A DNA stretch of 64,000 nucleotides, from positions 61,164,439-61,228,438 of the forward strand of contig NC_134847.1 in assembly GCF_965363235.1 (NCBI RefSeq), in the 5' to 3' direction. Below the pieces are notes generated by a model. The model saw only the letters and a list, made by a program, of their open reading frames with translations. It was not told the origin of the DNA and ran no database searches. Positions 26,727 to 64,000 of the stretch are shown one piece after another (positions within the stretch are counted from its first letter, which is position 1; the number at the start of each line of letters is the position of its first letter). Origin of the DNA: Mytilus galloprovincialis (taxonomy: Eukaryota > Mollusca > Bivalvia > Mytilida > Mytilidae). The position numbers were made by a program, and so were the translations under genes.

Positions 26727-27984
26727 TTAGAATCCAAGGAAGCTGAGGAATTTCTTTCCACCTTTTAACAAGCCTGAACCTAGTTTCTTGAAACCTCCAA
26801 TGATATCAGACAGAGCTCCATCGTTTTCATTTTCTACATTGTCCCTTTCTTTTTGTCTAAGTTTGTCCGTTTTCATTCTTGATTTATACTCATCATCCTT
26901 TCGTTTAAGTTCTCTCTCCATTTCGCGATCCTTTGCTTCTAACTCTTTTTGTAATCTACGATTCGACTCGTCTAGCTCTCTTTGTAGTTGCTCTCTTTCT
27001 CTCGCAGCACTCCTTATTTCCGACGATTTCAGCTGTTGTTGTAATGATTCCATTTGTTTCTCCATCCTTCTTTTGTCTTCCGTATCGTATCGACCACCTG
27101 AGTTTTTTGCGCTATTAAGCTTTTGTTTCAGACCCTTAACCTCCTTCTCAAGTAACCGCTTTTCTTCTTTACCCTTCGCTTCCTGTCTTTTCTTGGAGTT
27201 CAACTCTTCCTCGATTCTGCTTTTCTCAAAAATTTCTTTTTCTAATCTTTGCTCATATTTGTACTTTACTTGTCTCTCTATCTGTCCCTTTTCCTTTCGC
27301 TTCTCTTCTTCCAGCTTTTCACGCTGCGCACGCATCCTTCTTTGTAACGTTAGCTCTGCTTCTTGATATATTTCACTTGTATAACAGGACCCGCCATTAT
27401 TAATGACCATTCGATCGACCATGTCATAAAATTCTGCCACTTGTTCTTTTCTAGACTGTCCTGTCATATATCGATATATCGATTTCCACACTGTTGAAGA
27501 ATTGCTGCCAGTTCCTGTGGTACATGCCTGACGTAATCACAGATGGACTGATTTCTTTTTGAGAGGTCATCTTTCCTGGTGAACAGAACTATCATGTATC
27601 GCAACATTCCCTCACCAAAATGATCAACAAAATGGCTGACTGTGTCTTGCTCTTCTTTCGTGAATCTACCGAGACCAACAACTAGCACCATAGCGTGCGG
27701 TCCTGGAGATGTCATTCCTATGCATTTAACTATTTCCTTGGTAACCTTTTCGTTCGTCATACCTGTATCAAAAAGTCCGGGTGTATCAACAACTATTACT
27801 TTCTTTCCATTTTGAGTACACTCTCCCCGTTTGCACTTGCTCGTTACGGAGGAAGCAGAAACCATGGATTCGAACTGCTCTTTACCAAGAAGAGAGTTTC
27901 CAGTGGCACTTTTTCCAGATCCTGTTCTTCCAATTAGAACTATACGAATTTCATTACTTGCTTCAAAATCTGTATGTTTTGAAT
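26727..27984 (-). pseudogene. Gene 1: AIG1/GIMAP GTPase exon, frame broken (NZF-AIG1 family)
   Basis: This is the GTPase exon of the first paralogue. The acceptor TTTTAG lies just before 27984 and the stop is at 26729-26727. Visible AIG1 motifs are GRTGSGKSATGNSLLG (G1), VVDTPGLFDT (G3), the family box GPHAMVLVVGLGRFTKEEQD and TRKDD (G4). Compared with gene 2, ten bases are missing just after NRYI at about 27475-27485. The frame therefore ends within a few codons, and the G5 segment (FNND in gene 2) is lost. Beyond that point the other frame carries a recognisable long charged coiled coil, about 40 residues longer than in gene 2, and ends KKFLSFLGF. So the original was a full-length GTPase and this copy is probably a pseudogene, unless it makes only a truncated product or the assembly is wrong. 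Its entry phase (two bases, AT) fits the NZF exons at 30837-31004 and 32527-32694. Confidence 0.8.
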
Positions 27985-28029
27985 CTAAAATGATTCAAAT
28001 GAAAAATATCTAAAGAAAAATGTAAAACA

Positions 28030-30148
28030 ATCTATGTCTTTGTTAGATTAAACCTAAGTGTGTTTTTTATATACTTAGTAAATCAAAACTCAACAAGCAG
28101 AAAGTTTACAGACAACGACCATATCAATGGTTTGTCTGGTGATTGACTCTGCAACTCAATGTCCACCAGCAGTGACATCAGCCAGCTCAGTAATCGGTTG
28201 CATGAAAATTCAACGATGTGGTCATTTTCTGTATATTTTTCAGTTTAGACACTTTAAATAACTCAAAACACTCAGGTTGTTGGTTACCTCTATCTATACA
28301 ACTGTTTGTACACCTGACGTAAATTTAGGTTTTACCTGAAAATCAATCGAAACTCAGCAATGAGTCTTATGTAGTCTAAACCCGCAACTTGTGTACATAA
28401 TAATGAGGCTTGGATGATTTTGTATCACGAATTATCTATATAACTTCTTGTATACCTAACGTACCTTAGGGTAATACCTACCAATCATACGAAACTCATG
28501 AATTGTCATGGAATATCATTGATGCGATAGTTTTTTTTTTCATTCATAGTTCATAAAATTTGAAACACTAAATATTTTCTATTTACTCTCATTCTATTTT
28601 AAGCGGAACTGGTGATTCTTGTGTAAACCGAAACACTGGCCAAATAAGGCAATAGCCTCATTTGGTGACGTTTTGGTTTTATTGTGTTATTTAGTTGTTA
28701 CCTCATTGACTTGAACCGACACCACAAATTGTATTTATGTTTTGAACTTTTTTCTTTCATCAAGATAATTAAGAAATGTACAAATTTACTGTAATTGGAG
28801 TCACAGAAAAAACTCTTCTCTGAAAAATCACCATGTTTAATTCAATGGCATGTTAAAATGGAGACATTACAATGTTCACTATGCACCTTATACGTATAGA
28901 TTAAACTTCACTATTACCTTGCAATAAAGATGGAAAACTATCTGACTCGGGGTTACTTTCGTGTGTAAAATTCTCTGAATAACACACTTGACATCTTTTG
29001 TAGGAATTTTTGTTTGTGAATGTACATCTCGTACAAGACCAATCTGCAAAAAAAAAAAACCCCAAAGAAGTCATTCGATGACGAATAGAAGTCCTTCCGT
29101 GTTGAAAATGAGTGCTTGCATGTTGTATCCCTTGTCATAAAAAAGTCCTTCAATGTCGCAAATCATTGGTGAAATCTTTTATTTGCAAGGCGTACATGTG
29201 TTTTATATCTTAGTGATAAATGACAGCAGTATGTAGAATAGTGTACATGGTGCCCTCGGTTTAGGAAGAACATACTTAAAATTGTTGACACTCAATTTCG
29301 TAAAATGTAATCCCCTCCTTCACCCGGCTTGCATTTGAATATTGTTAGAAACTAACCATTGAAATTTGTGATGGTATGATTTGGTTATTTCAACAAACAT
29401 GGCCTAGGCAGTATCTGCTCTCAACAGTTAAAGTACTATTATTATTAAATTTATAGTTAATGAGAGATAACTCTAAATCATATGACATTAGACAGTATTT
29501 TATTGACAATCATGGTTCCTTGTCGGGCAAGATACATAAACATAATTCAAAGATTATTATAAAACAAGTTTTTAAAATTTAGATTCAAATAGTTGATGAC
29601 ATTTGTCTAACTTATTACAAAATAACCCTTAATTGATATTATACTAAACGTATTGTATATTAAAAATTACAGTTGGAAGTTATAATTGTGGTGTATGCTT
29701 AATCTTATATACGAACTTTAAATAAAAATTGGCACATCATTGTGGCCTTCATTATGATAACTTGTGTTAGTTGTTATTTGCCTTCAGCGGACCACAAAAG
29801 AGTTCTTCCATATCGCAAAGGAGTTACTGCGTATCACCCTGTTACATTAACTCTACAACTGCATACAGTTAAACAGAAGGTGTATTGGTATATACACTAT
29901 TTCAAATGAGCATCTGAGTTCATCCTCGGTTTTCTTGTAAATTAAATGTGAGTTCGTGTTTACCTAGCTTGAAATCTATCGATAAACCGTAGTGTTACAT
30001 CTTATCTTTACCCCGGGCGGCTTAGAGCTGTAAATATGATTTCGACAATTTCTATCATTTCTAAAGATCACGACAGTTTTACAACTTTTATAAAGCTAAG
30101 ATTTATGAAACAAATTACACAGGAAAATTAAAATCAATTTCTTAAATG
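28030..30148. other. Large intron of gene 1
   Basis: The stretch lies between the GTPase exon and the nearer NZF exon. It aligns piecewise with the gene 2 intron (41473-44210), for example AACATGGxxTxGGCxGxATCTGCT at about 29397 and 43469. I see no third exon in it. Confidence 0.6.
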
Positions 30149-30170
30149 AAGGTAATCAAGATAAAAAAAA

Positions 30171-30485
30171 AAGTGAAGGGTCATATAATTAAACGGTATG
30201 TCAATGCAATTTAAAAAGTGAAGGGTCAAACAATTAACCGGTATGTCAATGCAATTTAAAAAATGAAGGGTCAAACAATTAAACGGTTTGTCAATGCAAT
30301 TTAAAAAATGAAGGGTCAAACAATTAAACGGTTTGTCAATGCAATTTAAAAAATGAAGGGTCAAACAATTAAACGGTTTGTCAATGCAATTTAAAAAGTG
30401 AAGGGTCAAACAATTAACCGGTTTGTCAATGCAATTTAAAAAATGAAGGGTCAAACAATTAACCGGTATGTCAAAGCAATTTCGG
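30171..30485. repeat. 45-base minisatellite, seven units
   Basis: The starts GAAGGGTCA at 30175, 30220, 30265, 30310, 30355, 30400 and 30445 are spaced exactly 45 bases. Because 45 is divisible by three, the minus strand shows an open run of 15-residue repeats (TLHFLNCIDxP...). It has no start context or splice support and I do not regard it as coding. Confidence 0.95.
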
Positions 30486-30836
30486 ACTAAAGTAATAGCA
30501 TGAACAAGGAATATAACTCGTAATGTCGAAAAAGATAAATAAAGATTCTACTAAATCTTCCTGATGGTTACGATATAAATCCAAAAAAAGTAAAATCACA
30601 AAAATACTGAACTCCGAAGAAAATTTAAACGAAAAGTCCCTTAACAAATGGCAAAATCAAAAGCTGAAACACATCAAACGAATGAATAACAACTGTCATA
30701 TTCCTGACTTTTTGACAGGCATTTTCTTATGTAGAAAATGATGGATTGAACATGGTTTTTATAGCATCAAATTCCATTATAGAGATATTGAAAATTTAAA
30801 CATTAAACTTTAAAATGCAAATTGAAGGCAAACTAC

Positions 30837-31004
30837 CTTTTTTATATGTATAGCTGCTCATTGGTTTCGTTCTGTACCTGCAACTATTTTCCAATTTTTC
30901 AGGTTCTTCAATCTTAACATTTTCACAAACTTGGCAACAAAACGAATCAGTCTCATTTATAAATGTACAACGCTTGCACGTCCACTTGGACATTATGTTG
31001 ATTC
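30837..31004 (-). CDS. Gene 1: NZF (RanBP2-type) zinc-finger exon, copy A
   Basis: The acceptor TTTCAG lies just before 31004, eleven leader bases follow, then ATG at 30993-30991. The exon ends at 30837 before GTAGTT. The finger begins MSKWTCKRCTFINE and continues CCQVCENVK. It has the four zinc ligands in the order WxC-x2-C-x10-C-x2-C and the Thr-Phe pair that NZF domains use for ubiquitin. Coding length from ATG is 157 bases, so it leaves one base that completes GAT with the GTPase exon (phase fits). An acidic linker follows the finger. The 5' untranslated exon upstream was not found. Confidence 0.8.
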
Positions 31005-31284
31005 CTGAAATAAAAAAAAATAGTTCAATAGCAGTGAATAGTGAGATTGTCATTTAAACTGAATTTTACTGTGCGTATTGCTTTGTGTTTTTTTATCCCA
31101 CATTTGCTAAATGTATAAGTGGATGTCTGAGATCTCACACATTTTTGTTAACATCGCCACATATGTATGCGACTGTCGAAAGTCAGGAACCTCTAGCCTT
31201 TGTTATCCACGAATGCGTGTTTTTTTTTTAATTTTGGTACATTTATATGCTAGTATGGCGTCTATTTTACTGCACAAGTATACA

Positions 31285-31415
31285 TAATTGTTTAAAGACC
31301 AACTAAAGCCCGCGTCCTTGTGCGGGATTTTCATGCTGCATTAAAGACCCATTGGTAAACTTTGGTGGTTTTCTGCTTTTTGGGCTCTTTCACACATCCC
31401 CCGTTTCCAATCAAG
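31285..31415 (-). mobile_element. Repeat fragment (14680-15060 family), unit A
   Basis: Reversed and shortened relative of the repeat at 14680-15060 and 42735-42975. The segment GGGTCTTxAATGCAG-A-xxCCCGCAC is recognisable on the minus strand. It lies upstream of the NZF exon and is duplicated at 32990-33115. Confidence 0.6.
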
Positions 31416-31987
31416 ATTAAGATATCAAAGGATCAATTAATCACAATGATCAGTAAGGACAACCAACGATACATTCAGAAAGTTCGAAAGAACAGGAATA
31501 CTGATAGTTGTTTCCTTAATTGTATAAAATCGATAGTTCGAAAAAGAAGCCATGTTGATAATTATTCATTATTTGTTAGTGTTTATAAGTCTCGGATTTT
31601 ACAGCTTTCTTTCTATGTTTATTACCAAGAAATATTAAACAATTATGTAAGTGATTTTTTTCGTAGAAAAAAATAAAAACAAATACTCACTTATATGGTG
31701 TACAAACTTTAAAACCGAAATTACTTTTACATTATGTCAGTACTTTAAATAGTATAGTATCGTGATATTGACTTTATCCAGAAGTTTATTACTAGACTTG
31801 TTATGTACTTCTGCTATATCGAGGCTATATCATATAACGAATAATAGGACTATAAATTATACCCGAAATATGAATAGATTTAAATCGAAACAGTCAACAT
31901 ATACAATGAAAAGGATTATTATTTGTAGAAAACCGAGTAAGATTACAATTGGGTAGACTATCAGGAAAGGTAATCAAGATAAAAAAA

Positions 31988-32168
31988 AAGTGAAGGGTCA
32001 TATAATTAAACGGTATGTCAATGCAATTTAAAAAGTGAAGGGTCAAACAATTAACCGGTATGTCAATGCAATTTAAAAAATGAAGGGTCAAACAATTAAA
32101 CGGTTTGTCAATGCAATTTAAAAAGTGAAGGGTCAAACAATTAACCGGAATGTCAAAGCAATTTCGGA
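31988..32168. repeat. 45-base minisatellite, four units
   Basis: The same unit as 30171-30485, with starts at 31992, 32037, 32082 and 32127. Three fewer copies than unit A, so copy number has already changed since the duplication. Confidence 0.95.
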
Positions 32169-32526
32169 CTTAAGTAATAGCATGAACAAGGAATATAACT
32201 CGTAATGTCGAAAAAGATAAATAAAGATTCTACTAAATCTTCCTGATGGTTACGATATAAATCCAAAAAAAGTAAAATCACAAAAATACTGAACTCCGAA
32301 GAAAATTTAAACGAAAAGTCCCTTAACAAATGGCAAAATCAAAAGCTGAAATACATCAAACGAATGAATAACAACTGTCATATTCCTGACTTTTTGACAG
32401 GCATTTTCTTATGTAGAAAATGATGGATTGAACATGGTTTTTATAGCATCAAATTCCATTATATAGATATTGAAATATTAACAATTTCAACATTAAACTT
32501 TAAAATGCAAATTGAAGGCAAACTAC

Positions 32527-32694
32527 CTTTTTTATATGTATAGCTGCTCATTGGTTTCGATCTGTACCTGCAACTATTTTCCAATTTTTCAGGTTCTTCA
32601 ATCTTAACATTTTCACAAACTTGGCAACAGAACGAATCACTCTCATTTATAAATGTACAACGCTTGCACGTCCACTTGGACATTATGTTGATTC
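32527..32694 (-). CDS. Gene 1: NZF zinc-finger exon, copy B
   Basis: Nearly identical to copy A (MSKWTCKRCTFINES; Thr to Ser changes at two places). ATG is at 32683-32681, acceptor before 32694, donor after 32527. The whole exon is 168 bases, phase 1 at both ends. If both copies are spliced in, copy B ends in G, which joins copy A as GGA ATC AAC ATA ATG with no stop. The transcript could therefore encode two fingers. Alternatively only one copy is used, or copy B is an assembly duplicate. Confidence 0.7.
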
Positions 32695-32989
32695 CTGAAA
32701 TAAAAAAAATAGTTCAATAGCAGTGAACAGTGAGATTGTCATTTAAACTGAATTTTACTGTGCGTATTGCTTTGTGTTTGTTTATCCCACATTTGCTAAA
32801 TGTATAAGTGTATGTCTGAGATCTCACACATTTTTGTTAACATCGCCACATATGTATGCGACTGTCCAAAGTCAGGAACCTCTAGCCTTTGTTATCCACG
32901 AATGCGTGTTTTTTTTAATTTTGGTACATTTATATGCTTCTTAGTTAAGTGTGGCGTCTATTTTGCTGCACAAGTATACATAATTGTTT

Positions 32990-33115
32990 AAAGACCAACT
33001 AAAGCCCGCGTCCTTGTGCGGGATTTTCATGCTGCATTAAAGACCCATTGGTAAACTTTGGTGGTTTTCTGCTTTTTGGGCTCTTTCACACATCCCCCGT
33101 TTCCAATCAAGATTA
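32990..33115 (-). mobile_element. Repeat fragment (14680-15060 family), unit B
   Basis: Duplicate of 31285-31415 within the second tandem unit. Confidence 0.6.
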
Positions 33116-33829
33116 AGATATCAAAGGATCAATTAATCTCAATGATCAGTAAGGACAACCAACTATACATTCAGAAAGTTCGAAAGAACAGGAATACTGA
33201 TAGTTGTTTCCTTAATTGTATAAAATCGATAGTTCGAAAAAGAAGCCATGTTGATAATTATTCATTATTTGTTAGTGTTTATAAGTCTCGGATTTTACAG
33301 CTTACTTTCTATGTTTATTACCAAGAAATATTAAACAATTATGTAAGTGATTTTTTTCGTAGAAAAAAATAAAAACAAATACTCACTTATGGTGTACAAA
33401 CTTTAAAACCGAAATTACTTTTACATTATGTCAGTACTTTAAATAGTATAGTATCGTGATATTGACTTTATCCAGAAGTTTATTACTAGACTTGTTATGT
33501 ACTTCTGCTATATCGAGGCTATATCATATAACGAATAATAGGACTATAAATTATACCCGAAATATGAATAGATTTAAATCGAAACAGTCAACATATACAA
33601 TGAAAAGGATTATTATTTGTAGAAAACCGAGTAAGATTACAATTGGGTAGACTATCAGGAAAGATGATATTATAACAATTAATGAATATAAGAAGAGCTA
33701 TTACACGCAACAACTAATATGAAGAAAGAGGGTGAAATAAAGAGACAAAGAACATTTATATGGATAAATCCGATCATTTTACATGCAACACGTTCGTTAT
33801 CTCCCTTTGTAACACGTTGTGAAATTGAA

Positions 33830-34080: not shown

Positions 34081-34084
34081 ACAT

Positions 34085-37160: not shown

Positions 37161-37169
37161 GTTACTGTA

Positions 37170-40324: not shown

Positions 40325-43300
40325 TTATTTTAATCCAAAGAAGCTAAAAAATTTCATTCCAGCTTTTACCACGCCTAAACCTAGCTTTTTTAAACCTTCA
40401 ATGATATCAGACAGTGCTCCATCGTCATCATTTTCTACGTTGTTCCTTTCTTTTTGTCTAAGTTTGTCCGTTTCCATTTTTAATTTATACTCATCATCCA
40501 TTCGTTTAAGTTCTGTTTCCAGTTCTCGCTTCTTTGCCTCTATGTTTTTTTGTAATCTACGATTCGATTCGTCTAGTTCTCTTTGCAGTTGCTCCTTTCC
40601 TATCATAGTACTCCTTATTTCCGACAATTTAATCTGTTGTTCTAATGATTTCAATGTGTTTTCTATCCTTCTTGAGTTCCATTCTTCCTCGATTCTATTT
40701 TTCTCTAAAATTTCTTTTTTCAATTTCTTTTCATACTTGTTTTTTATTTGTGTTTCTAAATGTTCCCTTTCCTTTCTCTTTTGTTCTTCTAACTGTTTAA
40801 TCTGCACATGCATCCTTCTTTGTAACGCCAGCTCTGCTTCTTGAAATATTTCACTTGTATAACAGGACCCGCCATTATTAACGAGCATACGATCGACAAG
40901 GTCATAAAATTCTACAACTTGTTCTTTTTTAGACTGTCCGGTCTCGTCGTTATTGAAAGCAATATAGCGATTATCACACTGTTGAAGAATTATTGCCAGT
41001 TCCTTTGGGACTTTTCTAACGTAATCACAGATTAACTGATTATGTTTTGAAAGGTCGTCTTTCCTGGTGAACAGAACTATCATATGTCGCAATATTCCCT
41101 CACCGAAATGATCGACAAAATACCTGACTGTGTCTTGTTCTTCTTTCGTGAATCTACCGATACCAATAACTAGCACCATAGAGTGCGGCCCTGGAGACGT
41201 CATTCCAATGCATTTAATTATTTCCTTGGTAATCTTTGCGTTCGCCATTCCAGTATCAAAAAGTCCGGGTGTATCAACAACTATTATTTTCTTTCCATTT
41301 CGAGTAGACTCCCCCCGTGTGCACTTGCTAGTTATGGAGGAAGCAGAAACCATGGATTCGAACTGCTCTTTACCAAGAAGAGAGTTTCCAGTAGCACTTT
41401 TCCCAGACCCTGTTCTTCCAATTAGAACTATACGTATTTCATTACTAGCTTCAAAGTCTGTATGTTTTGAATCTAAAATGATTCAAATGAAAAATACCAA
41501 GTCAAATGTAAAGTCTTCTTACAGTTTAGTTATCAACAGCAAAATAGTAAAAACACAAAACAACTCAACAAAACCAAGATGGCAATGTACTTAACATAAC
41601 CATATAACTTATTCTATTCGTGCAATTAACTGTTTCGGTGAAATTGAAATCCTTTATATAAAGGTATATCACGGCTACGTAGTAAGGTTGTCGTATCGAG
41701 GAGCGTTTAGTACACAAATTTTGTCAAAGTTTGATTAAGTTGGTCATGGATTAATTAGGTTAGTTGACGAAACGCGCGTCTGGCGTACTAAATTATAATC
41801 CTGGTACCTTTGATAACTATTCCTAGACCGATTGCCTCAATTCTTTTCAAATGAGCAAATGAAAGGAAATTACATGTTTGAATCTATACTGTAAGTCAAA
41901 CGATCTAAATTGAAATTGTTGTTTTTAAGAAAGAAATGAAGGATAATCAAAATTTTGAAATTGATACTGTTTGGTTAAGCGATTGGCATGATTCAGTAAA
42001 GTGTCTATAAATTCGTCATGGTTTTGATAAAATTTGTCATGGTTTAGATCCAAATTTAAACATATTTGTTTCACCTTAATAATGATAGTTTGTGAAAAAA
42101 TGAAGTAACACAATTTAACGATTGTCTACAAAATTTCAAGGAAGAAAAGCCTTAAAAAAAGTTGGTGAGCGTTATCGGCAAAACGTACATTTATACATTT
42201 TTTTGTGTGTTCCTACGATATGATTTATATAGCCACTGCTATTTTTAACTGACATTCGACATAATGAATTAAAAAAATGTTCAGTTTTAGCTAAACTCTT
42301 TTCTTTATACGTCCAAGATGGACATCTGCCCGGGATAATAATCGTGAGAGGTGTTTAAGAGTTGTTAAACTTTTAAGGTGTATTATTAAAAGTTGTCACA
42401 TTGACAATCATATCATATCTTCTTTTTTTTTATATTATGTTTTATTTTAAGGCGTTCGAGGAAGTGCTTTATAACTTGGTTATATATGATAGCAATATGT
42501 AGAAAATAGTGTAGTAAATGAATGTGTCTTAAATGAAACTTTCGGATTTTTTTGTAGTTGATATTGGGCCACTTCTTCGAGCACATGTTTACAAAAATTC
42601 AGCCAATTTTTTTAAAAGTTGCTTAACGAAGTACATACAGAGAATTTGTAAAAACCAATTTGTAAAAGAATAATAACCTCCTTCTCCCTAGTTTCCACTT
42701 GTATATTAGTGTTTTCATTTACTATTTAAACAATAACGTTGAGAAAGGAAATGGGGAATGTGTCAAAGCGACAACAACCCGACCATAAAGCAGACAACAG
42801 CCGAAGGCAACCAATGAGTCTTCAATGTAGCGAGAACCTCTCGCACCCGGAGGCGTCCTTCAGCTGGCCCCTTAAAAATATGTATACTAGTTCAGTGATA
42901 ATGGACGTCATACTAAACTCCGAATTATACACAAGAAACTAAAATTAAAAATCATACAAGACTAACAGCTCCAGACCTCAATTAAACTGATTGAAAGATT
43001 ATGTCTTCATCATATGAATATTAGGCACAATCCCTCTCGTTAGGGGTTTAGTATCATACTATCATAACAAATATGGGAAGAACATAACCCGTGTCATGCC
43101 AACAACTGTTTTTTTTTCAAATAAATGTGTTTAGTTCTGGTGCAAAAACCCTATAAGTGAATCAATATTAAAGCAAAACTATGCAATCTCTAATGACCTG
43201 ACAACAGTATCGTAACTATATCTCTTCTTAATAAGTCTGTTTAAAGGTTTTGTAAGCTTTTGAGGTGAACACTGACATTTTTGTACTTTGTAAAGAATAT

Positions 43301-44378
43301 TAACATAAAAGATTGGATGTGAAATACCTGAACGTATAAGATGTCTGCATGTTGAGTTATATTTACGAACGAATTATTTCCTTATATGGATGATAAAATT
43401 TAGTAAATGTTTTGACTAGTTTGTGATATCGAAAACCCTGGTGTAATAATGTTTCAGTGATACATAAAACATGGAATTGGCGGCATCTGCTCCCAAGAAT
43501 TGAGATGTTACACTATTATTAGCAAATTTACAATAAACGGAGGATAACTCGTAATTATTTGAATTTGACTTTTGAAAATTTTACATTTTAATAACTGATG
43601 ACATTTGTCCTTTTTACCTATCAAAAATATGTTTTTGTGAGTTGACAGTACATACTAAACGTATTGTATATATAAAAGATACAATTGGTAGTTATACTTG
43701 TAGTATATGCTGAATTTTATACACGTATCTTTTCTTGAAATTGTCCCAAGTGTGACTAGCATCGTAATAACTATTCAGCTGACACAGGCACTTGTCTCAG
43801 AATTTATTTTTTCTATATTCCTTAAAACTAAACAAAAACGACCTATTTTTCTACAGCTTATTTTTGTGCTGATATTTTCGCTGACAGTGTTACATATTAT
43901 CTTTACCACGGTCGGCTTAGGGCTGGAAATATAATTTAGACAATTTTCTATATCATTTAAATGTGACGATAGTCTTACAATATATGCTTTATGAATCTTT
44001 ATCGAAAGTATTTAGATGATTTTAAAATAAACAAAATAAAAGTGAAGGGTTTTTACACGAGCATTTCGAACTAAAGTAACGGGGAAATTTATCTTAATGT
44101 TGCATTTAAGATACATAAAGATCTACCACGCCTCATCGCTGAATACGATATTAATCCAATATATATATTTAAAAATTCCAACTTTAAAATTCGGGGTTAA
44201 TCCACATTACCTGTTTCATTTGTATTGCTGCTCGTTTCTTTCTGTGTGTAACTGCAACCGTTTTCAAATACTTCAATTTCTTCACTTTTAATATTGTCGC
44301 AAGTTTTGCAATACAGGGAGTCGTCCTCATTTATAATTGTACACCACTTGCACGTCCACATGGACATTTTGCTGATTC
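40325..44378 (-). CDS. Gene 2: NZF zinc finger + AIG1/GIMAP GTPase + coiled coil (intact, two coding exons)
   Basis: Exon 1 is 44378-44211 with ATG at 44367-44365; exon 2 is 41472-40325 (stop TAA at 40327). The phase-1 junction makes GAT, giving 434 residues. Residues 1-26 are a RanBP2/Npl4-type finger (MSMWTCKWCTIINE...YCKTC), with Ile in place of the usual Phe after Thr. A short acidic linker follows. The AIG1 GTPase spans about 64-270: G1 GRTGSGKS at 71-78, G3 DTPG at 119-122, the family box PGPHSMVLVIGIGRFTKEEQ, G4 TRKDD at 188-192 and G5 RYIAFNND at 221-228. A Glu/Lys/Arg-rich coiled coil runs to about 400. The tail LGVVKAGMKFFSFFGLK is amphipathic and could touch membranes (inference). 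GIMAP proteins are immune-linked GTPases that scaffold on membranes. AATAAA overlaps the stop codon. Additional exons in the 2.7 kb intron are not seen. Confidence 0.87.
42390..42437 (+). mobile_element. SINE tail fragment in gene 2 intron
   Basis: AAAAGTTGTCACATTGACAA followed by TCATATCATATCTTCTTTTT is a decayed 3' tail of the SINE family at 16575-16872. Confidence 0.55.
42735..42975 (+). mobile_element. Interspersed repeat, second copy (GGCGTCCTTCAGCTGGCC family)
   Basis: Close relative of 14680-15060, from GGAAATGGGGAATGTGTCAA to AAAATCATACAAGACTAACA. It lies in the intron of gene 2 in antisense. Confidence 0.8.
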
Positions 44379-51700: not shown

Positions 51701-51710
51701 TTGGTGAAGG

Positions 51711-54570
51711 ATGTCACAGTGGATGTGTGATGGATGTACCTTTTTGAATGAACATTGGCGAAATAAGTGTAAAGTGTGTAAGAGCTTAAAGAGTAAAGAT
51801 GACTATGGGGCTTCTGGTGGTGGAAATGAATCTGAAGACAGATCAGCATCGCGCAAAGAGAAAGGTAAAACTTGATTGAATCATTTTATTTTAAAATAAG
51901 AAACCTTGAAACAATTTTCTCTATAATGATATTTTTAACATTGACCCAAATGAGTAGTTCAATTATATTGAGTATGGATGAAACAACATTTGAATAAAAA
52001 AGAGAATCTAAAATATAAAATATAAAAATAGATCATTTTTACAGTTGAATTTGTATCGGTTATACAAAAGACCTCTGATAGTGATAGTCTATGTTTATCT
52101 TCGTTTAATCTCATGTAAACTTCTATATATTATGGACAATTTAGTCTTGAGATGTAAACTTCGATATATTATGGACAATTTAGTCTTGAGATGTAAACTT
52201 CTATATATTATGGACAATTTAGTCTTCAGATATTGTATATAGAAACATGTCCTGATGTATTTTAGTTATTTCAAACCTGAATTCAAATTGATGTCTTATT
52301 GTCGCATACATTAAATCCCTTCAATTCATTAAATACCAAAGTCTTGATTAAAGATAACTTTTATATTCATATATTTGATTTCTCAACTATTACAGATTGG
52401 ACCTGCCCTAAATGTACATTTATAAACCAAACAACGAGTACAAAATGTGGAGTGTGCCGGTCCACGCATGAGACCGGATGTCATCCAGTGGAGAAACAGT
52501 CTAGCAACAACAACAAATGTAAGTATAATCTCGGGTTTAGCTAAGAATATGGAAATCCCTCTTAGAACAACTATGGCATTTCAACTAAATTTCAATGTAG
52601 GTTCCATTTCAGAAAGTTTAAACCCAAATTTCCGGTTAAAGGAGCATTCCTTTGTGCACGTAGAACAACAACTCCACTCTTATCGTATTGCTTTGGTAGT
52701 GTTTTGTCAATAAGGCTAAACTCTTATTCTGGTGGAATGTATTGCATCATTCGAAACTCGGTGCATGCAGAATTTAGATCTGATGAGTATCTGTATGCTT
52801 ACTTACTAAATCCACTTCGTCACAAGTGGGACATAGAGCGACTGCAGTTTCTCTTCATTTCTTTCTGTCCATGGCTGTTCGTTTTGTTTCTTTCCAGGTC
52901 GTCCCAATTTTGCGCAGTATCTGTATGAAATCGGAACAATTATTTCAATAAATTAAAGAAATAATATCGTTGTAAATTCACACTGTAGAATTTCATTTCA
53001 TTGTAGTGGAACATGACGTCTAAAGTATTCAGTTAAGTTATATGAACCATGAAGTTCGGATATTGCAATCTTTTTTTTAAACTATACTTACACTTCAACT
53101 GCTAGATAAAATAAGTTAAACATTTATTAGATCAAAAATAGGAGTATGAGTTTTCGTCAATGTGACAGCACCCAATTGTCAGCAATACATTACACAAAAA
53201 GCTATATCTGGTATAAAATACGGACCTCACAAATGTCGTTTGATAGTTCTAAAAAACTGGTAATTATGAATTAATTACAGCAATCTTATCGTTGTCATTC
53301 CGTTCAACTTGCAAATAATTCCTTTGTTTCTGGAAACATAAAACTCACACAAAGTACTAGAATAAATCATATTTAAACCAGTTTTTAATTATAATAGTCC
53401 GGAATTTCAAATCTATTTATTTTGAATATTAAAGTGTACTTGTTTTAAGAACATGTAATGCGATATTCTAAAAAATATCTACATAAACCTTTTACATCTT
53501 TTTGCAGACTCGCCAGTCGGCGTAGAAGATAATGAAATTCGAATAGTACTTATCGGAAGAACAGGAACTGGAAAAAGTGCAACAGGAAATAATCTTTTAG
53601 GTCACGATCATTTCCGATCCCTTACTTCCGGTTCTTCGGTAACCGAAAAATGTAAACGCGGAGAATCAAAACGGAAAGGAAAAAAAGTAGTTATTGTTGA
53701 TACACCGGGCTTATTCGATACAGGAGCGACGAATGAAACTGTTACTAAGGAGATAATTAAATGTATCGGGATGACGTCACCTGGACCTCACGCAATGGTC
53801 CTTGTTGTTAGTGTTGGTAGATTTACTAAGGAAGAACAAGACACAGTCAAACATTTTGTAGACCATTTTGGAGCAGGTGTTGTTGACCACATGATTGTTC
53901 TTTTTACCAGAAAGGATGACCTTTCAAAATCGAATCAAACAATTGGTCAATATGTTAAAACGGTTCCTAGTAATCTTAAAACTATACTGAGTCAGTGCGG
54001 AAATAGATTCATTGCGTTTAACAATGATGCGGTAGGACAGTCAAACACAGATCAAGTTGATGACTTTTATAAAATGGTGGAGTCGATGTGCAATGACAAT
54101 GGCGGTTCTTGTTATACAAACGAATTATACAAGGAAGCAGAGTCTGCACTACAGAGGAGGATGCGTATAGAAAGGGAAAGACTTGAAGAGCAAAAGGAAA
54201 GAGAAAAAGATAAGATAAAAAACGAAGTACAATCTAAATATAAAAGGAAACTTGAACACGAAAAAAAGGCGAAAAGTAAATTAGAAGAAGATTTAAAATC
54301 CAAAAAATACAGTCAGATAAAGACAGAGAAAATCTACAGAAGCAACTAGAAGAAGCAAGCAAAAGAATGAAACGGGAGTTAGGGAAGAAGGACAAGGAAT
54401 TACGGGACCAAATAAAGAAAACGGAAGATGAATTCAAACAAAAAATGACCGAAGATGCATTAAAAACAAACCAAAGAAATAACGTAGAAAACGAAAAAGG
54501 CGATATTTTTTCTGATCTTATGGGAGGATTGGTTACTGCTGGCAAAAAACTTTTAAAATTATTTTTTTAA
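51711..54570 (+). CDS. Gene 3: two NZF fingers + AIG1/GIMAP GTPase + coiled coil
   Basis: Exons are 51711-51864, 52396-52518 and 53508 onward; all junctions are phase 1 with GT-AG. Finger 1 (MSQWMCDGCTFLNE...KCKVC) and finger 2 (DWTCPKCTFINQ...KCGVC) both keep the four cysteines and the Thr-Phe pair. The GTPase has G1 GRTGTGKS at 109-116, then DTPGLFDT, GPHAMVLVVSVGRFTKEEQ, TRKDD and RFIAFNND, so it looks functional. The primary frame stops at 54349 (372 residues) inside the coiled coil. A homopolymer of six A at about 54301-54306 precedes a different frame. That frame continues the coil (QKQLEEASKRMKRELGKK...) and ends in the family tail SDLMGGLVTAGKKLLKLFF at 54570. Either one A is missing from the sequence or the protein is truncated. 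The exact 5' border of exon 1 is uncertain. Confidence 0.82.
52116..52232. repeat. 39-base tandem repeat, three units
   Basis: Units starting TAAACTTCTATATATTATGG at 52116, 52155 and 52194 differ by one or two bases. They lie in the first intron of gene 3. The intron does not depend on reading frame, so the open run here is incidental. Confidence 0.9.
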
Positions 54571-54591
54571 AACGGTTGAAAGCATAAAAGG

Positions 54592-54620: not shown

Positions 54621-54639
54621 AGTTGTACTTGTTTTGTTA

Positions 54640-57280: not shown

Positions 57281-57284
57281 GGAA

Positions 57285-57620
57285 AATACTAAAACGATAT
57301 TCAAACTCAAAAATCGAAAATAAACGGACGATGTCATGACAAAAACCCGAAAAACTAAGTAGTTGCAAACAATAGTGCACAAAATACACAAAAATAAGCA
57401 ATACCCCCTCCCCCCTCCCCCCCAAAAAAACCCAAACCAAACCGGTGGTTATCGCAAATTCAACTGAATGGTATGCAAATTCTGCTCCACGTGTGGCACC
57501 CGTCGTGTTGCTCATGTAAGTAGAAATCTTGTGACATTCTAATTAAATAGGTAACACTTGAGAAAAAGAGGACAGAAGTGTGGTTACGACAAACGGAACT
57601 TATCTTTCAACCAACTCATG
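57285..57620. mobile_element. Interspersed repeat (GTGGCACCCGTCGTGTTGCT family)
   Basis: Relative of 25440-25960: TCAAACTCAAAAATCGAAAAT, AAACGGACGATGTCATGAC, then CTGCTCCACGTGTGGCACCC, GTGTGGTTACGAC and a partial right side. A long C/A-rich run sits near 57404-57430. Confidence 0.6.
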
Positions 57621-57689
57621 ATGGCCAGCGTAACATCTTTGACTAACGTCAGAAATTGGAACTCTTTGTTTAATAGCTTTAATAAAAGA

Positions 57690-58000
57690 CTTAAATGGTC
57701 GATAAACATAGAAATGCATAGATGTTGAAACGCTTAAATTGTTAATTGTTGATAAACATAGAAATACATACATGTTGAAACACTGAGATGATCGAAAAAC
57801 ATAGAATAACTTAGGTATTGAAACACTGCAACGATTGACTCACTTACAATTACTTAGTTGTTAAAACGCTGGAATGATCGACACACTTACAAATACCTAG
57901 TTGTCGAGAAACTGGAATGATCGACACACTCAGAAAGACCTAGTTGTCGAGAAACTAGAATGATCTACACACTTAGAATTTCCTAGGTGGAATGATCTGT
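57690..58000. repeat. Degenerate 43-48 base tandem repeat
   Basis: Units of the form GATCGACACACTTACAAATA followed by CCTAGTTGTCGAGAAACTGGAAT repeat about six times. The best-preserved period is 43 bases near 57877-57962, decaying leftwards. Confidence 0.8.
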
Positions 58001-59569
58001 TAAATAACTATCCACGCGTATTAGACCGAAATGACCGGTTAATGATACATTACCCACATGGTGAATAAACTGATCGGACAAGTAGAACCAATCAGTGCAT
58101 CAACAAACTTTTAACCGAGCCTGTCCAATGAGATTGTATCGATTGTTATTGCTGCCTCCTGATTGAAGTGAGCACTCCTCATCTTTTGCATCTATATGCA
58201 TATCTCGAACACTTAGTCTGTGATAAAAGAAAGACGACTAACATCATTTGTAAAATTTAAAAACATCAGAGACTTATTCATTTTACTAAAAATGAGCACC
58301 TAAAAAACGAGTTTTTTTCTACAAAGCCTAGCAGGTACACCAGAAGAATATCTTTCATTTTTGTTTATATCGAGAAGGTATATTGACACGGAATTATAAA
58401 CATACAACCTATTGCTACACGACCGCAATATTTGGGAAACAACATATTTACTGAGCTTACTTTATTTATCATTCCAATGTATAAAGTTTATGTATTTGTT
58501 TAGAAATGAATGGAAGTGCCAAGTGTTACTTCAAGTTCACCTAATCATGGGTATCACTAGTTGAGAAGGAACGACAACACATACTTCAGTTCATGAGTTA
58601 ATGTGTTTGTGTTTACTTCGACGTATAATTTTAATTATCTCTTGGTATCTTCCCCCTTTTTTTTGACGATAACAACTATTTCTATTCAAGCGTTTCCTTA
58701 TATATAAATACCTAACTAGCCAGGGTCGTATACTTAGGGGTACCTGTATTTTTAACAGCTCTTTATTTTTTTTAATGTGGATAGAAATGATTATATTGTT
58801 TTTGTTTAATTTTAAAGTTTGAATCGATGGTATGATTCATTTTAACCAATATTATAACCGCTGTTGTCTCTTTTAAATTTGGTTATCCTCATAGATGAAT
58901 TTACATGAATTTCAAATATGCATTTATGTAGGGATGCCAAGATTAATCTACAAACTATATTTTTTTTACAAAAAATCATGTAATTACTGCGTTCTCTATC
59001 ATTTATCAATTAAAAATATCTATAAAATATTCCGGGCTGTAATTGATCGAAATCTTGCAACAGCTACATCATGATACAGTATTCATAAACATAGATTATA
59101 ATATTGTTAACCGGAATATCTATTTTAAATGACTAGTGTGTGTGACCACTGAAAATTACGTTTAAAGTCACAAGTTTTTCGAAGAAAATTGTTATTTCCC
59201 TAAATTTTTAACAACAAAATAAACAATTATTTCCTTGTTTTGAAGAAACTGTCACTACGTACATCGCCACTTATCGAAACAAAAATAGTCTTTATAATTG
59301 ATAGTGTTTCTTCCTTGTTAACAGAACGTCATTATTCACAGTCGAACCATGCATAATAATTATTTTAAGGAAAATTATATATTGTTAGCGTGACGAATTT
59401 TATATAAAGTTCCCTTTAGAACACTGTTATAATTTCAATACATTTGTTTCAATATAAATTATCGTTCTTGACGAGAAAAATACATAGCGTGGATGTATGT
59501 TTAATGTACTTGGACATACTGATATACTTAAACAATCGTAAGTAACGTATGTCTGTGTGTACATGTGTA

Positions 59570-59572
<3 letters not shown>
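58001..59572. other. Upstream flank of gene 4; nothing identified
   Basis: AT-rich, no exon seen. Promoter and untranslated first exon of gene 4 are expected here or nearer the microsatellite. Confidence 0.35.

Positions 59573-59640
<68 letters not shown>
59573..59640. repeat. (GA)n microsatellite
   Basis: About 32-33 uninterrupted GA units preceded by a short GT-rich run. It lies roughly 240 bases upstream of the first coding exon of gene 4. Confidence 0.97.
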
Positions 59641-59645
<5 letters not shown>

Positions 59646-59881
59646 ATCATGCTAGTTTTTTTACGTTGTATTTGTATATTTGTATCGTGTGCTTTATCGT
59701 GTTTTTAATTTCGGTAACGTCAATGCAAGTTTACCACAGTACTATCACCTCAATTTTGCAATATACGTATTTGATAAAATATAGAATTGAAACTGATAAT
59801 TATATAAAAGTTTAATGAAAGAAATTTGAATATTGTGTATTATACAGAAAACACATAACATCATGTGTTGATTTGTTTCAG

Positions 59882-62800
59882 ATTAAACGACAATGTGGAT
59901 ATGTCAAATGTGTACTTTGCTAAATCAAGACGAATCTATATATTGTCAAGCATGTGAAACTCAATCAGCGGATAGTAAAGGTCCAACTAAAGGGGACTGT
60001 AAGGCCATGGATAGGGAACAGACAGGCAAGTTAACGAGGCATTGTGATTACATGTAGTTTGATGTTTTTACTTTTTAAATTGACAATAATAAGTTATTAA
60101 AAGATAATTGAAAAAAATAGATAAGATGTTATGAATATTAAGAATATCCTTTATTTATATATTTTACGTTATTTTTTATAGAATGGTCTTGTCCTAAATG
60201 TACCTTCGTCAATCAGCCTGCTCATAACCGATGTCAAATATGTAATTCTAAGAATGTACCACGAACAGCAGTAGGACATTCTAAGCCTGTGATAAAAGGT
60301 ATTATTAATGTTTTATCTTTAGATTTCTGTACAGTGATTTGTGAAAAAATTTGTTTTTTAGATACAAATTTTGTATACATGTATGTGCTGTGTTACATAT
60401 ATTATTTTTCTTCCATTTTTTTTTGTACATTAATTACGCCGTCAGTTTTCTCGTTTGATTTGTTTTACATTTGTCGGAGCCTTTTATAGCTGACTATGCC
60501 GAATAGCCCTTTTTCGTTGTTGGTGACCTAAAATTGTTTGTTTCTGTATCATTTGGTCTCTTGGCAATACACCTTATCGCTATTTGTTCGCCATTACTGG
60601 ATATCACACAGGTTCCCGTAAAATGTTGACGTCACAATACAAAATATCTGACGCCACAATGGAAAAGTGATTGTTGTATGCGTCCAAAGTCCAAGCGGCC
60701 GGGTCAGCCGGGATTAGCGATAATGTGTATCATACCACATCTTCATTTTTATATACAAAGGCGTTCGAATTGAAACAATTGAAAAGTCAAACAACTACGA
60801 TCATTGCCAGGACGACTTAGAACTATTATTTTTTTATAAATCAGGTAATAGCTGGACATTTAGTGTCTTTTGAAAGAAAATGCTGGTGATTGAACGTATT
60901 CAGTAGTCCCGCTAAAACTCGTGCAGAATTTAGATAAACCCAGAACGATGGATGAACACTATCTGTCGCCCTCTAATGGTCATTTCTGGTTTATCGTTGC
61001 TAAATAGTTATTGTTTTGTCTATTTAATTTATACAATACATCTCATTTTCATGCATATTGCAATCTGTCAGTTTCTTTCGTCTTTTGTATGATTATTGTT
61101 TTCATAAAGTTTAAACAAAGCTTGCTGTTCTATAGAATAAATATTGTTTTTATTTACTTATCATGTTGTACTGATTTTGACCATACTTTGTAATCAATTG
61201 GAAATTAAACAATTTGTCGTATTCTCATCTTTTATTAACAAACAAATGAATAATCTGAAGCAATGCTATATATTACAGACTGGTCTGGTACTAGATGTTC
61301 ATCACCCAACCATTCCAATTCGAAGAAATGTCGGTCATGTCGATTTTCTTCTCAATGTGGAGATGAAGATGAAAAATCATCATTGAAAAATCATGGTAAG
61401 TGTTTTCAAAATATAGATGGTATTACTAACAAGTTATGGTAAATGTTTTCAAAACATAGGACATCACTGAAATGTCATGGTAAAAGTTTTCAAAACAAAG
61501 AACAGTCTAAACGGATGTGTTAGACTATTAGAAGAGTAAAATCGGTTAAGGAAAAACTTCCATAGTATAAACGATATTTTGTGTCCTCAATGCCCTTAAA
61601 CTATCTATTGAATTTGGCCTTCTGATTTTTTTTTATTTAAGCAACAGTAATCATCAATGATTAAACACGCCTCTATCATTATTATTTTTATTATCATTGA
61701 TATTACAGTTGACTACGATTTAGTCCTTGATTACAGCCGAAATTCGAAACCGAAATTATATCTATCACATAATATTAAATTACGACCCTTTCACTGTTTA
61801 CGACGTCGATTGAAGATTCTTAAATAAGTATCTTCCAATTATTTCAAAAACAATATATCTGTAGCAGTATCCAAGTATTACCATGTTTTAAAAACACCTT
61901 TAAGCAAGAATGTGTCCAAAGAACACGGATGCCCCACTCCCACTATCATTTTCCATGTTTAATGGACCGTGAAATTAAGTAAAAAATCTAATTTGGCAAT
62001 AAAATTAGAAAGATCGTACCATAGGGAACAAGTGTACTAAGTTTCAAGTTGATTTGACTTCAACTTCATCAAAACCTACCTTGACAACAAAATTTAACCT
62101 GAAACTCCCACTTTCATTTTCTATGTTCAGTGGACCGTGATATTGAGTTCAAAATTCTAATTTTCAAGTTGATTGGACTTTAACTTCATCAAAAACTACC
62201 TTGACCAAAAACTTTAACCTGAAGCGGGACAGACGGACGTACGGACGAACGGACATACGGTACGACGCACAGACAGACGGACGAAAGACGGACGCACACA
62301 CCAGAAAACATAATGCCCCTCTACTATTGTAGGTGGGGCATTAAAAAAGGACCATGTTAACTTTAGAAAATGGAAAAAATATTGTTGAGAAAATCATATA
62401 TTATATATGTAACACTACATTGTCTTTAACGATTACCAATTGATTATGATAATCTTGAATGATCAATACGTGAACATGTACAAAATGGAGGATGGTAAAT
62501 GCGTTTTTAATTATTTCGCTTGCCCTGTTGTTGTGAATGATATACGAAGTAAAGACAAAACAAAAATGATTACAGAATTGCCAGTTCATATGAAAATAGT
62601 ACAATACTGATATTCTTTGCGTTGTATTTTTTTCAGAATATTCATCTAGTGAAGCTAATGATGCATCTACGACGGTATCAAACATAGTTAGTGCAGTGGA
62701 CATAACAGCCAACACGTTTAAAGATGTTACCGAAAAAGTAAATGGTACAGTCGATAAAACAGTCAATATGTTGAATGATACTACCGATAAAGTAGTTCGT

Positions 62801-64000
62801 ACAGTTGGCGAAGCTGCCAACACGTTTACAGATGTTACCGATAAAGTAGTCCGTTCCGCCGAAATAGCAGCCAACACGTTAACAGATGTTACCGATAAAG
62901 TAGTCAGTACAGTTGACAAGACAGCCAATACGTTTAAAGATGTTACCGATAAAGTAGTCAGTTTAGTTGACGAAGCAGCTAGTGAAATAACAGGAACAAC
63001 ATATAAAAATGAGACAGCCTTTAAAACGGATAGCATAGATAGTGAGGCTGAAAAATTCTGTAGTGCTATTGACGTTGAGGCATCTTTTGAACATACAAAT
63101 TATGAAACACATACCACAAGGGATAAAACAAACGATACACATCATGAAGAAGTAGATAAAGTTGCCAGTCAAGTTGAAATGACAGATGTAGCCAATGGAG
63201 TTGTCATAATAAGTGATAAAGAAGACAGTAGTGTTGACAGAGTAACCAGTGCAACCAATATATTTGAAGCAGACGGAGAAATTCGTATCGTACTCATTGG
63301 TCGAACAGGGACTGGTAAAAGTGCAACTGGAAACACTCTCTTAGGGTTTGATCAGTTCCGATCACTGCCCTCGGGGTCTTCGGTTACAGACAAATGTAAA
63401 CCAGGAGAATCTATTAGAAATGAAAAGAAAGTTGTAGTAGTTGATACACCCGGTTTATTTGACACGGAGGTGACGAATGAAACTGTCACCAAGGAGATAA
63501 TCAAATGTATCGGAATGACGTCACCAGGACCGCATGCTGTTGTTCTTGTTGTGAGTATCGGTCGATTTACAAAAGAAGAACAAGATACTGTCAAGCATTT
63601 TGTTAATCATTTTGGGAATGGCGTTTTCAAATATATGATCGTTCTTTTTACTCGAAAGGATGACCTGACAAAAATGAAACAGTCAATTCATCAATATGTG
63701 GAAACAGTCCCAAAAGAACTTAAAACTATCCTTCAACAATGCGGTAATAGGTATATTTCTTTTAACAATGACGCAACTGGACAACCACAGAGAGACCAGG
63801 TTAATGAATTTTTTGAAATGGTCGAATCGATGTGTAGTGAGAATGGCCACTCCTGTTATACGAATGAAATATATCAAGAAGCTGAAATTACATTGCAGAG
63901 AAGGATGCAGATTGAAAGGGAAAAGTTGAAAATGCAGAAAAAACTAGAGATTGATGCTGCCAGAAATGAAGTAGAATGTAAATACCTGGAAACGCTTGCA
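59882..64000 (+). CDS. Gene 4: three NZF-type fingers + 18-residue repeats + AIG1/GIMAP GTPase (partial)
   Basis: Exons are 59882-60025 (ATG 59893), 60182-60298, 61279-61395 and 62637 onward; all junctions are phase 1. The visible part is 577 residues and the window ends before the stop. Finger 1 is MWICQMCTLLNQ...YCQAC and finger 2 is EWSCPKCTFVNQ...RCQIC. Finger 3, DWSGTRCSSPNH...KCRSC, lacks the first cysteine. Residues 143-232 are five tandem 18-residue repeats, consensus VDxxANTFxDVTDKVVxT. An acidic linker follows, then the GTPase: G1 GRTGTGKS 344-351, G3 DTPG 392-395, box PGPHAVVLVVSIGRFTKEEQ, G4 TRKDD 461-465, G5 RYISFNND to 501. The coiled coil begins near 545. Intron 1 starts with GC (CAG/GCAAGT). 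It is the longest family member here and its N-terminal modules differ most from genes 1 and 2. It lies downstream of gene 3 on the same strand. Confidence 0.88.
60420..60750 (+). mobile_element. SINE in intron 2 of gene 4, with nested insert
   Basis: Landmarks of the 16575-16872 family are present (TTTTTTTGTACATTAATTACG, GACTATGCCGAATAGCCC, TTTGGTCTCTTGGCAAT). The family end ATCATACCACATCTTC resumes after an insert of about 160 bases. Confidence 0.75.
60569..60736. mobile_element. Small TIR element nested in the SINE
   Basis: The left end ACACCTTATCGCTA and the right end TTAGCGATAATGTGT are inverted to one another. They split the SINE between GGCAAT and ATCATACC, leaving an AT duplication. 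The interior is GC-richer (CCAAGCGGCCGGGTCAGCCG). Confidence 0.75.
61376..61490. repeat. Decayed tandem copies of an exon end and its donor
   Basis: The end of exon 3 with the first intron bases (TCATGGTAAGTGTTTTCAAAA) is echoed twice downstream. The echoes read TTATGGTAAATGTTTTCAAAA at about 61434 and TCATGGTAAAAGTTTTCAAAA at about 61478, with weakened donors. This looks like an old local tandem duplication across the splice site. Confidence 0.7.
61890..62350. mobile_element. Interspersed repeat ending in a TGCCCC/GGGGCA hairpin
   Basis: It begins near GTCCAAAGAACACGGATGCCC. It contains two tandem copies of a segment of about 120 bases (ATTTTCxATGTTxAxTGGACC to CTTxGACxAxAAxTTTAACCTGAA) and an ACGGACG-rich tract at about 62225-62300. 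It ends with AATGCCCC...GGGGCATT, an inverted hairpin. I recall this as a common bivalve repeat. It lies in intron 3 of gene 4. Confidence 0.7.

Follow-up and report, generated by a model that had tools for sequence, protein, structure and literature searches.

Four finger-GTPase genes in one mussel window

A 64-kb stretch of the genome of the mussel Mytilus galloprovincialis (G000:C10:61164439-61228438; genome 1.38 Gb), hereafter the window, was found to hold four genes, A to D, in which exons for RanBP2/Npl4-type zinc fingers are combined with an exon for an AIG1 GTPase. The minus strand carries genes A and B and the plus strand genes C and D, the two pairs diverging from a gap at 44.4-51.7 kb. 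Each gene has one to three finger exons upstream, with one finger per small exon, and at its 3′ side a single long exon in which the AIG1 GTPase is followed by a charged coiled coil and then by an amphipathic tail. The internal exon borders show AG before and GT after the exon (GC at the first finger exon of gene D), the exons are splice-compatible throughout, and the GTPase exons of all four genes open in phase 1. The five internal finger exons measure 168, 126, 123, 117 and 117 nt, all multiples of three; from these phases and lengths the fingers can be regarded as cassettes whose gain or loss keeps the reading frame, which fits the varied finger counts (three or two in A, one in B, two in C, and two plus a degenerate third in D). 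The window thus holds eight intact finger exons and a degenerate ninth (D finger 3). A finger profile, built partly from the window fingers or close relatives, scored the eight at 34-47 bits, and no other frame of at least 25 codons in the 64 kb passed 8 bits; an Rfam scan of the window gave no match at gathering scores.

The identity of the GTPase was clear in all four genes. Pfam AIG1 was matched at 233.8 bits in B, 235.2 in C and 235.7 in D, and at 197.2 bits in A up to its stop (cut-off 27), with E below 1e-57 in every case. A first-pass annotation, made from the letters of the window, had described two genes per strand in divergent arrangement, each pairing finger exons with an AIG1 exon, and had proposed a Pfam search; the arrangement was found as described, the pairing was upheld in all four genes by Pfam AIG1 and the finger profile, and all four exceeded the AIG1 cut-off. 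The motifs GRTG[ST]GKS, DTPG, TRKDDL and FNN (G1, G3, G4 and G5 region) are present in the homologous proteins P0015 (identical to gene B), P0003 (C), P0008 (A/B) and P0001 (D), and gene A of the window is broken at the FNN/G5 region. GBP and IRG proteins, which the mussel proteins would resemble in their action, are membrane GTPases in defence, some of them prenylated and some acting at ubiquitin-marked vacuoles, and they belong to other GTPase families: IIGP reached 24.0 bits in C (cut-off 24) and 14.1 in A, where AIG1 reached 235.2 and 197.2, and no GBP family appeared in the Pfam tables of the window genes, so the mussel G domains are AIG1 domains with IIGP at cut-off at best. With vertebrate GIMAPs (GIMAP2, 4, 5 and 7) they share the AIG1 G domain by Pfam, by PDB sequence (GIMAP4 3lxx and GIMAP7 3zjc, with P0073 as query) and by fold (P0003), whereas the mussel proteins have a finger module before the G domain.

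Genes B and D have open frames. In gene B, the GTPase, coiled-coil and tail exon (40325..41472, minus strand) is intact, and the sole finger exon (44211..44367, minus strand; coding part from the start codon) reads CTI at the position of the Cys-Thr-Phe triplet and T at the last inter-cysteine site, which we abbreviate as (CTI, T). NCBI protein P0015 is identical to the gene B model over all 434 residues, and tblastn with six finger queries found no second finger between the gene B exons. Gene D, on the plus strand, begins with finger exon 1 (CTL, A) at 59893..60025 (coding part from the start codon; GC donor) and finger exon 2 (CTF, I) at 60182..60298 (phase 1-1, 117 nt), both of which are in the Mytilus edulis protein P0001. 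The degenerate finger exon 3 follows at 61279..61395 (plus strand; phase 1-1, 117 nt), with its first zinc Cys changed to Gly; this finger is annotated in P0001, and the Cys is retained in P0009. The last exon, at 62637..64000 on the plus strand, encodes a repeat helix, the AIG1 GTPase and the start of the coiled coil, and continues to 64324, that is, 324 bases past the window (L009 1-324). With the third finger exon gene D has 684 residues and P0001 has 666; 648 of 666 aligned residues are identical, the 18 gap columns equal the length of one repeat unit, and the first 122 residues are identical to M. edulis at 120 of 122 positions. The GC donor after finger exon 1 (GCAAGT) lies at 60026, and a perfect (GA)32 run is present at 59577-59640, just upstream of the gene.

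Gene C, also on the plus strand, has finger exon 1 (CTF, V) at 51711..51864 (coding part from the start codon), finger exon 2 (CTF, V) at 52396..52518 (phase 1-1, 123 nt) and a last exon at 53508..54570, in which the GTPase is intact, the coiled coil is frame-broken in this assembly and the tail follows. Its open-frame relatives are Mytilus coruscus P0003 (315/367 identical) and P0017 (178/184; 13 member sequences). The AlphaFold model of P0003 has a mean predicted local distance difference test (pLDDT) score of 83, with finger blocks mostly at about 84-90, linkers below 50 and long helices after the G domain, and its GIMAP fold was matched best by GIMAP7 3zjc and GIMAP2 2xtp in Foldseek.

Gene A, on the minus strand, has its GTPase, coiled-coil and tail exon at 26727..27984, with a frame break in the G5 part of the GTPase, so that in this assembly the exon is covered by open frames at 27464-27994 and 26727-27536. 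Finger exon 1 (CTF, V) lies at 32527..32683 (coding part from the start codon), a second copy of it (CTF, V) at 30837..31004 (168 nt, in frame if spliced in) and finger exon 2 (CTF, V) at 28918..29043 (phase 1-1, 126 nt), all on the minus strand. The doubling of the first finger exon is due to a direct tandem duplication of 1.7 kb (30303-31969 and 31984-33663, 97% alike), which looks as if made by unequal crossing-over; a 45-bp minisatellite (30168-30482, 31985-32164) is found at the edges of the tandem copy. Open-frame relatives of the gene A GTPase fragment are M. edulis P0011 (169/174 aligned positions identical) and the second half of the M. galloprovincialis record P0123 (163/170). P0011 starts within the finger-2 exon, so that finger-2 and GTPase exons are connected in its model. 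M. edulis P0008 was considered as a strict gene A orthologue and rejected: both of its fingers are of the A type, but its GTPase is identical at 160/173 positions to B and at 150/174 to A. The earlier picture of a four-gene cluster is not supported as one of four working genes, as A and C are frame-broken in this assembly and the finger of B is without two of the contact residues discussed below.

That fingers and GTPase belong to one protein is practically certain. Annotated open-frame fusions are M. edulis P0001 (D), M. edulis P0008 (A-like fingers with a GTPase nearer B) and M. coruscus P0003 (C), and P0187 is an M. galloprovincialis fusion from contig C7, to which its residues 361-694 are 100% identical. 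Four proteins labelled lgn (P0068, P0079, P0086 and P0178), of 452-513 residues with a finger and a GTPase, come from contigs of only 1601-2224 bases; contigs this short could not accommodate introns as long as those in the window and are thus probably cDNA. Separate finger and GTPase transcripts, which would have undone the fusion claimed in the first-pass annotation, were rejected as the principal explanation because of P0015, the annotated mollusc fusions and the four lgn proteins, and the claim was borne out by the same annotation and contigs.

Kinship of the fingers with ubiquitin readers

In the eight aligned finger exons the four zinc Cys, a Trp and an Asn are invariant; D finger 3 is one Cys short. 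CTF is found in six of the eight (CTI in B, CTL in D1), and V, I or A occupies the last inter-cysteine site in seven (T in B), in agreement with the earlier statement that this holds for most fingers. The full combination of T-F plus V or I is present in 6/8, D1 having T-L/A and B having T-I/T. When Pfam was searched for RanBP fingers, as had been suggested, gene C passed the cut-off of 27 (41.5 bits); D (25.6), A (22.6) and B (12.0) stayed below it.

A profile of 21 fingers was compared with the PDB, and the best 60 of 83 chains were ranked. The ligand class of the ranked fingers (ubiquitin, Ran or RNA) is general background, except for TRABID, which is treated below. The best chain of each ubiquitin binder scored as follows: Npl4 6e-10, HOIL-1L 6e-8, HOIP 9e-8, TAB3 4e-7, TAB2 5e-7, YAF2 1e-6, RYBP 2e-5 and TRABID 3e-5, where HOIL-1L and HOIP are presumably the RBCK1-type and RNF31 chains. 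Ran-binding Nup153 and RanBP2 chains came at 6e-4 and weaker, bar one tandem, and the RNA-binding RBM5 at 0.18. The many ubiquitin-binding Npl4 zinc fingers (NZFs) in the PDB inflate their number in this ranking, not their scores. By sequence, fingers that bind ubiquitin are nearer to the window type than those that bind Ran or RNA, the tandem Nup153 chain 3gj8 being the exception. The nearest solved relatives are the Npl4-type fingers (Npl4, TAB2/3, TRABID, HOIP, HOIL-1L), which share the pattern W-x-C-x2-C-T-x2-N ... C-x2-C; the mussel fingers differ in being fused to a GTPase and in that several copies are without a contact residue, and they are known from sequence.

It might be supposed that the fingers bind RNA, Ran or a protein partner instead of ubiquitin, like other RanBP2-type fingers. 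They belong to the same fold family, 3gj8 reached 1.6e-6, and many fingers depart from the T-F/hydrophobic motif. On the other hand, ubiquitin binders outranked nearly all Ran binders and RBM5, no RNA-binding finger besides RBM5 was named among the best 60 of 83 chains, and we regard a ligand other than ubiquitin as quite unlikely. Ran- or RNA-binding fingers, as a class for the mussel ones, were rejected on this ranking, in which ubiquitin NZFs stood above them.

The contact residues gave a more graded picture. In a study of TRABID NZF1, Ala at T14, Y15 or M26 is reported to disrupt binding to K29 and K33 chains (PMC4386640). At these three sites, 41 distinct fingers had T in 38/41, F or Y in 20/41 (L in 12, H in 6) and A, I, V or M in 32/41, and oyster first fingers, like that of gene B, were without the full T-F/hydrophobic set. 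TAB2, which we take to have Gln at the third contact site, presumably still binds chains, and if so the third contact would not be absolute. Taken on sequence, binding of ubiquitin by at least one finger of the family appears quite probable. The ubiquitin-directed character proposed in the first-pass annotation thus survives in that the fingers group with solved ubiquitin-binding NZFs; it is weakened for gene B, whose finger is without two of the three contact residues. At two loci on contig C11 (L027 and L029; G000:C11:59824731-59862823), the second fingers carry the complete set of ubiquitin contacts, namely T, F and M.

Enzymes with such fingers have a precedent. CAPN15 is a protease, not a GTPase, and its likeness to the mussel proteins is limited to the finger type. 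It is described as a calpain directed by ubiquitin whose N-terminal part contains NZF fingers (PMC12805371), ahead of the enzyme as in the mussel proteins, and thus offers a precedent for an NZF-guided enzyme.

Finger-GTPases in the genome and among molluscs

To what extent fingers accompany AIG1 exons was followed over the whole genome, where AIG1 exon matches numbered at least 150 (scored from 214 candidates, fragments included), many of them in dense clusters on C11 and C5 and some with stops. A stricter finger DNA pattern, independent of the profile (W.C..CT, then a codon of the F/Y/I/L/H kind, and Asn; it misses D1-like fingers), gave 60 genome matches against 21 for the reversed control. 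Twelve of the 60 preceded one of the 150 AIG1 matches by no more than 20 kb on the same strand, where 0.06 were expected, and five of the 12 were outside the window (naive P 2e-9). The pattern marked nine of the 150 AIG1 loci: four in the window, three on C7 and two on C11. A looser pattern with no codon restriction matched all eight window fingers and was not enriched overall (128 vs 120 for the control), so single looser matches mean little. In the 10 kb upstream of the 20 best-scoring AIG1 matches among 146 outside the window, same-strand fingers were present at 4/20 (L018, L020, L027 and L029), and L023 has one finger further upstream than that. A census of the genome with Pfam PF00641 at 0.001 returned 14 matches, one of them in the window.

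For the spread beyond M. galloprovincialis, 206 homologues were collected (the best 120 of 1702, the best 120 of 1413, plus 2) with queries that contain molluscan fingers, so that the results are weighted to molluscs; a finger was scored as C-x2-C ... C-x2-C with Trp two residues before the first Cys. In 29 of the 206 homologues listed a finger stands ahead of the first P-loop, all 29 having that order, and the double protein P0124 has a further finger before its second G domain. Among the matches listed, finger-GTPases occur in Mytilus edulis, M. trossulus, M. coruscus, M. californianus and M. galloprovincialis, in Tegillarca granosa and Ylistrum balloti, in the oysters Crassostrea virginica, C. 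angulata, Magallana gigas, Saccostrea echinata and Ostrea edulis, and in the abalone Haliotis cracherodii, H. rubra, H. asinina and H. rufescens; four more of the 29 are lgn proteins. No NZF-type finger was found in the vertebrate-named homologues among these matches, whose queries favour molluscs, and this fits the earlier remark that no vertebrate GIMAP has such a layout. The implied view of the four genes as one local family did not hold, since the C7 and C11 loci and other molluscs share the finger-GTPase design. The C7 protein P0187 (G000:C7:48842736-48869527, L011 and L012) combines a weak, under-cut-off match to a DZIP3-type HEPN domain with one NZF-type finger, AIG1 and a CSIM end.

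An AIG1 tree was made from 53 rows of 55 given (P0038 and P0027 were dropped; the finger proteins P0002, P0009, P0014 and P0123 were not included). The six vertebrate rows part from the 47 others, molluscan as far as named, at 99/94, and fingers are present in the mussel, oyster, ark-clam, scallop and abalone parts. A single ancient fusion was not established because the finger label needs 12 changes on this tree, although the rows without the label include many partial models or single-exon frames, such as Mgal_L013, which has fingers upstream. The finger-GTPases may stem from one ancient fusion with losses or from repeated gain.

The same data bear on whether the fingers are decaying passengers, the GTPase acting alone in a cluster that is partly pseudogene. 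The frame breaks in A and C, the motif loss in B and D finger 3, and annotated models of relatives without whole fingers, e.g., P0011 and P0121, would all be expected in that case. The near-identity of the first 122 residues of gene D to M. edulis (120/122), the recurrence of fingers in bivalves and abalone, and the open-frame relatives of A and C (P0011, P0017 and P0123) argue the other way, and we consider passenger fingers very improbable.

Probable membrane attachment and a possible role

The tails and C-termini were inspected for possible membrane contacts. The hydrophobic moments of the four tails (gene A being represented by the P0011 tail) are 0.55-0.67, and shuffles as high numbered, of 2000, 11 for P0011, 52 for B, 18 for C and 3 for D; the amphipathic tail reported earlier was thus confirmed, most weakly for B. 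Gene D has in addition a 54-bp (18-residue) coding tandem repeat at 62685..62979 on the plus strand, likely a long amphipathic helix. Its period is 18 residues, with an identity of 0.46 at lag 18, and an 11-residue (perilipin/synuclein-like) repeat was rejected on this account. At 100 degrees the moment of the insert, taken over 99 residues, is 0.44, a value that 0/2000 shuffles reached, and in the AlphaFold model of P0001 (mean pLDDT 62) the insert is one helix, residues 131-226, of low confidence.

A CaaX-like motif was found at the C-terminus of none of the four genes A-D. Six homologues listed (P0068, P0073, P0078, P0084, P0187 and P0191) end in CSIM, which we take to be a farnesylation-type CaaX box, and their near relatives P0071, P0079, P0104, P0121, P0173 and P0200 have no such end. 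CaaX-like ends are present in 38 of the 206 homologues listed, many of them vertebrate, which makes this a recurring GIMAP trait that does not set the finger group apart. GIMAP-like proteins may be prenylated more often than has been assumed. Attachment to membranes, by different means in different proteins, is likely, judging from these tails and ends.

Together these features suggest a mechanism. Fingers with Thr-Phe/Tyr and a small hydrophobic partner would bind ubiquitin through its Ile44 patch; tandem fingers, along with oligomers formed by the coiled coil and GTPase, would add avidity for chains or densely ubiquitin-coated surfaces; GTP would drive assembly through the G domain, as in the solved GIMAP2 and GIMAP7; and the amphipathic tail would hold the assembly on a membrane, with the CaaX-like end of certain relatives or the gene D repeat helix as other anchors. 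The site at which a membrane GTPase scaffold forms would then be determined by ubiquitin, most likely in the service of innate defence or selective clearance, and we judge the chances for and against this whole reading to be about equal.

The same fingers could also serve a ubiquitin-chain signalling scaffold, reading K63 or linear chains that arise in innate signalling, as TAB2/3 or the subunits of the linear ubiquitin chain assembly complex (LUBAC) do, while the GTPase clusters them, with no targeting to microbes or vacuoles. TAB2, TAB3, HOIL-1L and HOIP are among the closest solved fingers, and Aplysia TAB2 is described as having a RanBP2 finger (PMC9334734). The amphipathic tails, the CaaX-like ends of some relatives and the gene D helix point instead to membranes, and no signalling domain passed the Pfam cut-off in the window genes; such a scaffold seems rather unlikely.

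Several observations weigh against ubiquitin as the cue for membrane assembly. Two of the four genes (A and C) are frame-broken in this assembly, and the Pfam RanBP cut-off was passed by the fingers of gene C only. The finger of gene B has I and T at two of the three contact sites, the related copy P0014 has also lost the Thr, and D finger 3 has lost one zinc ligand. Many fingers of the family show L, H or I next to the Thr, or Ala or Gln at the third contact; as Ala at that third site disrupted TRABID binding, such fingers may be weak. In the PDB ranking, the Nup153 tandem 3gj8 stood among the ubiquitin binders, and yeast Vps36, which we take to be a ubiquitin-binding NZF, came at 7e-4, level with the Ran binders. 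Genome-wide, 141 of the 150 AIG1 matches are without a stricter finger match within 20 kb upstream, and the finger label needs its 12 gains or losses on the AIG1 tree. The CSIM end was rejected as a mark of the finger group, with 38/206 homologues listed CaaX-like and six of those CSIM. Finally, ubiquitin binding, membrane targeting and an immune role are what we infer for these loci.

The immune role in particular would rest on knowledge of the family and on expression data for mussel IMAP genes. In mussel gills a Vibrio bath was followed by a strong rise of some IMAP genes and a strong fall of others (PMC7772429), and a mussel GIMAP 4 was in a down-regulated group (PMC6401078), the present loci not being identified in the available parts of either report. 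GIMAP oligomers as membrane scaffolds are discussed in a review (PMC8201404), in whose available text the word zinc occurs nowhere.

GIMAPs are a large family of immune GTPases, strongly expanded in invertebrates, and the cue for their targeting is poorly known, above all there. A ubiquitin reader joined to the GTPase offers a direct way to ask whether ubiquitin tells a GIMAP where to assemble, and a finger-GIMAP family, if true, would provide an independent comparison for ubiquitin-guided GBP/IRG defence. As a tentative extension, more doubtful than the reading from which it departs, these genes may form a molluscan immune-GTPase branch in which a built-in ubiquitin reader places an amphipathic-tailed or prenylated GIMAP coat. 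One polypeptide would then do the job of vertebrate GBP/IRG proteins and separate ubiquitin ligases or adaptors, and the phase-1 finger cassettes would let finger number, and perhaps chain-type preference, vary between paralogues.

In the literature, as covered by titles and the beginnings of abstracts, no description of a finger-AIG1 fusion was found, absence not being proven thereby, and no paper was found that pairs AIG1 with zf-RanBP. The closest comparison is a survey of multi-domain AIG genes in Biomphalaria and nine further molluscs (PMC7053062), the accessible text of which counts 19 architectures for the snail and describes added death, CARD, kinase, ARM or Hint domains. It resembles our case as an expanded molluscan AIG family with added domains and coiled coils and differs in that its accessible text has neither 'zinc' nor 'RanBP' (0 occurrences of each). 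The mussel finger-GTPases are a variant of the GIMAP family, and their proteins are already public under generic names. Such names ('GTPase IMAP family member', 'uncharacterized protein'), together with fingers that often fall under the Pfam cut-off, may explain why the combination easily escapes notice.

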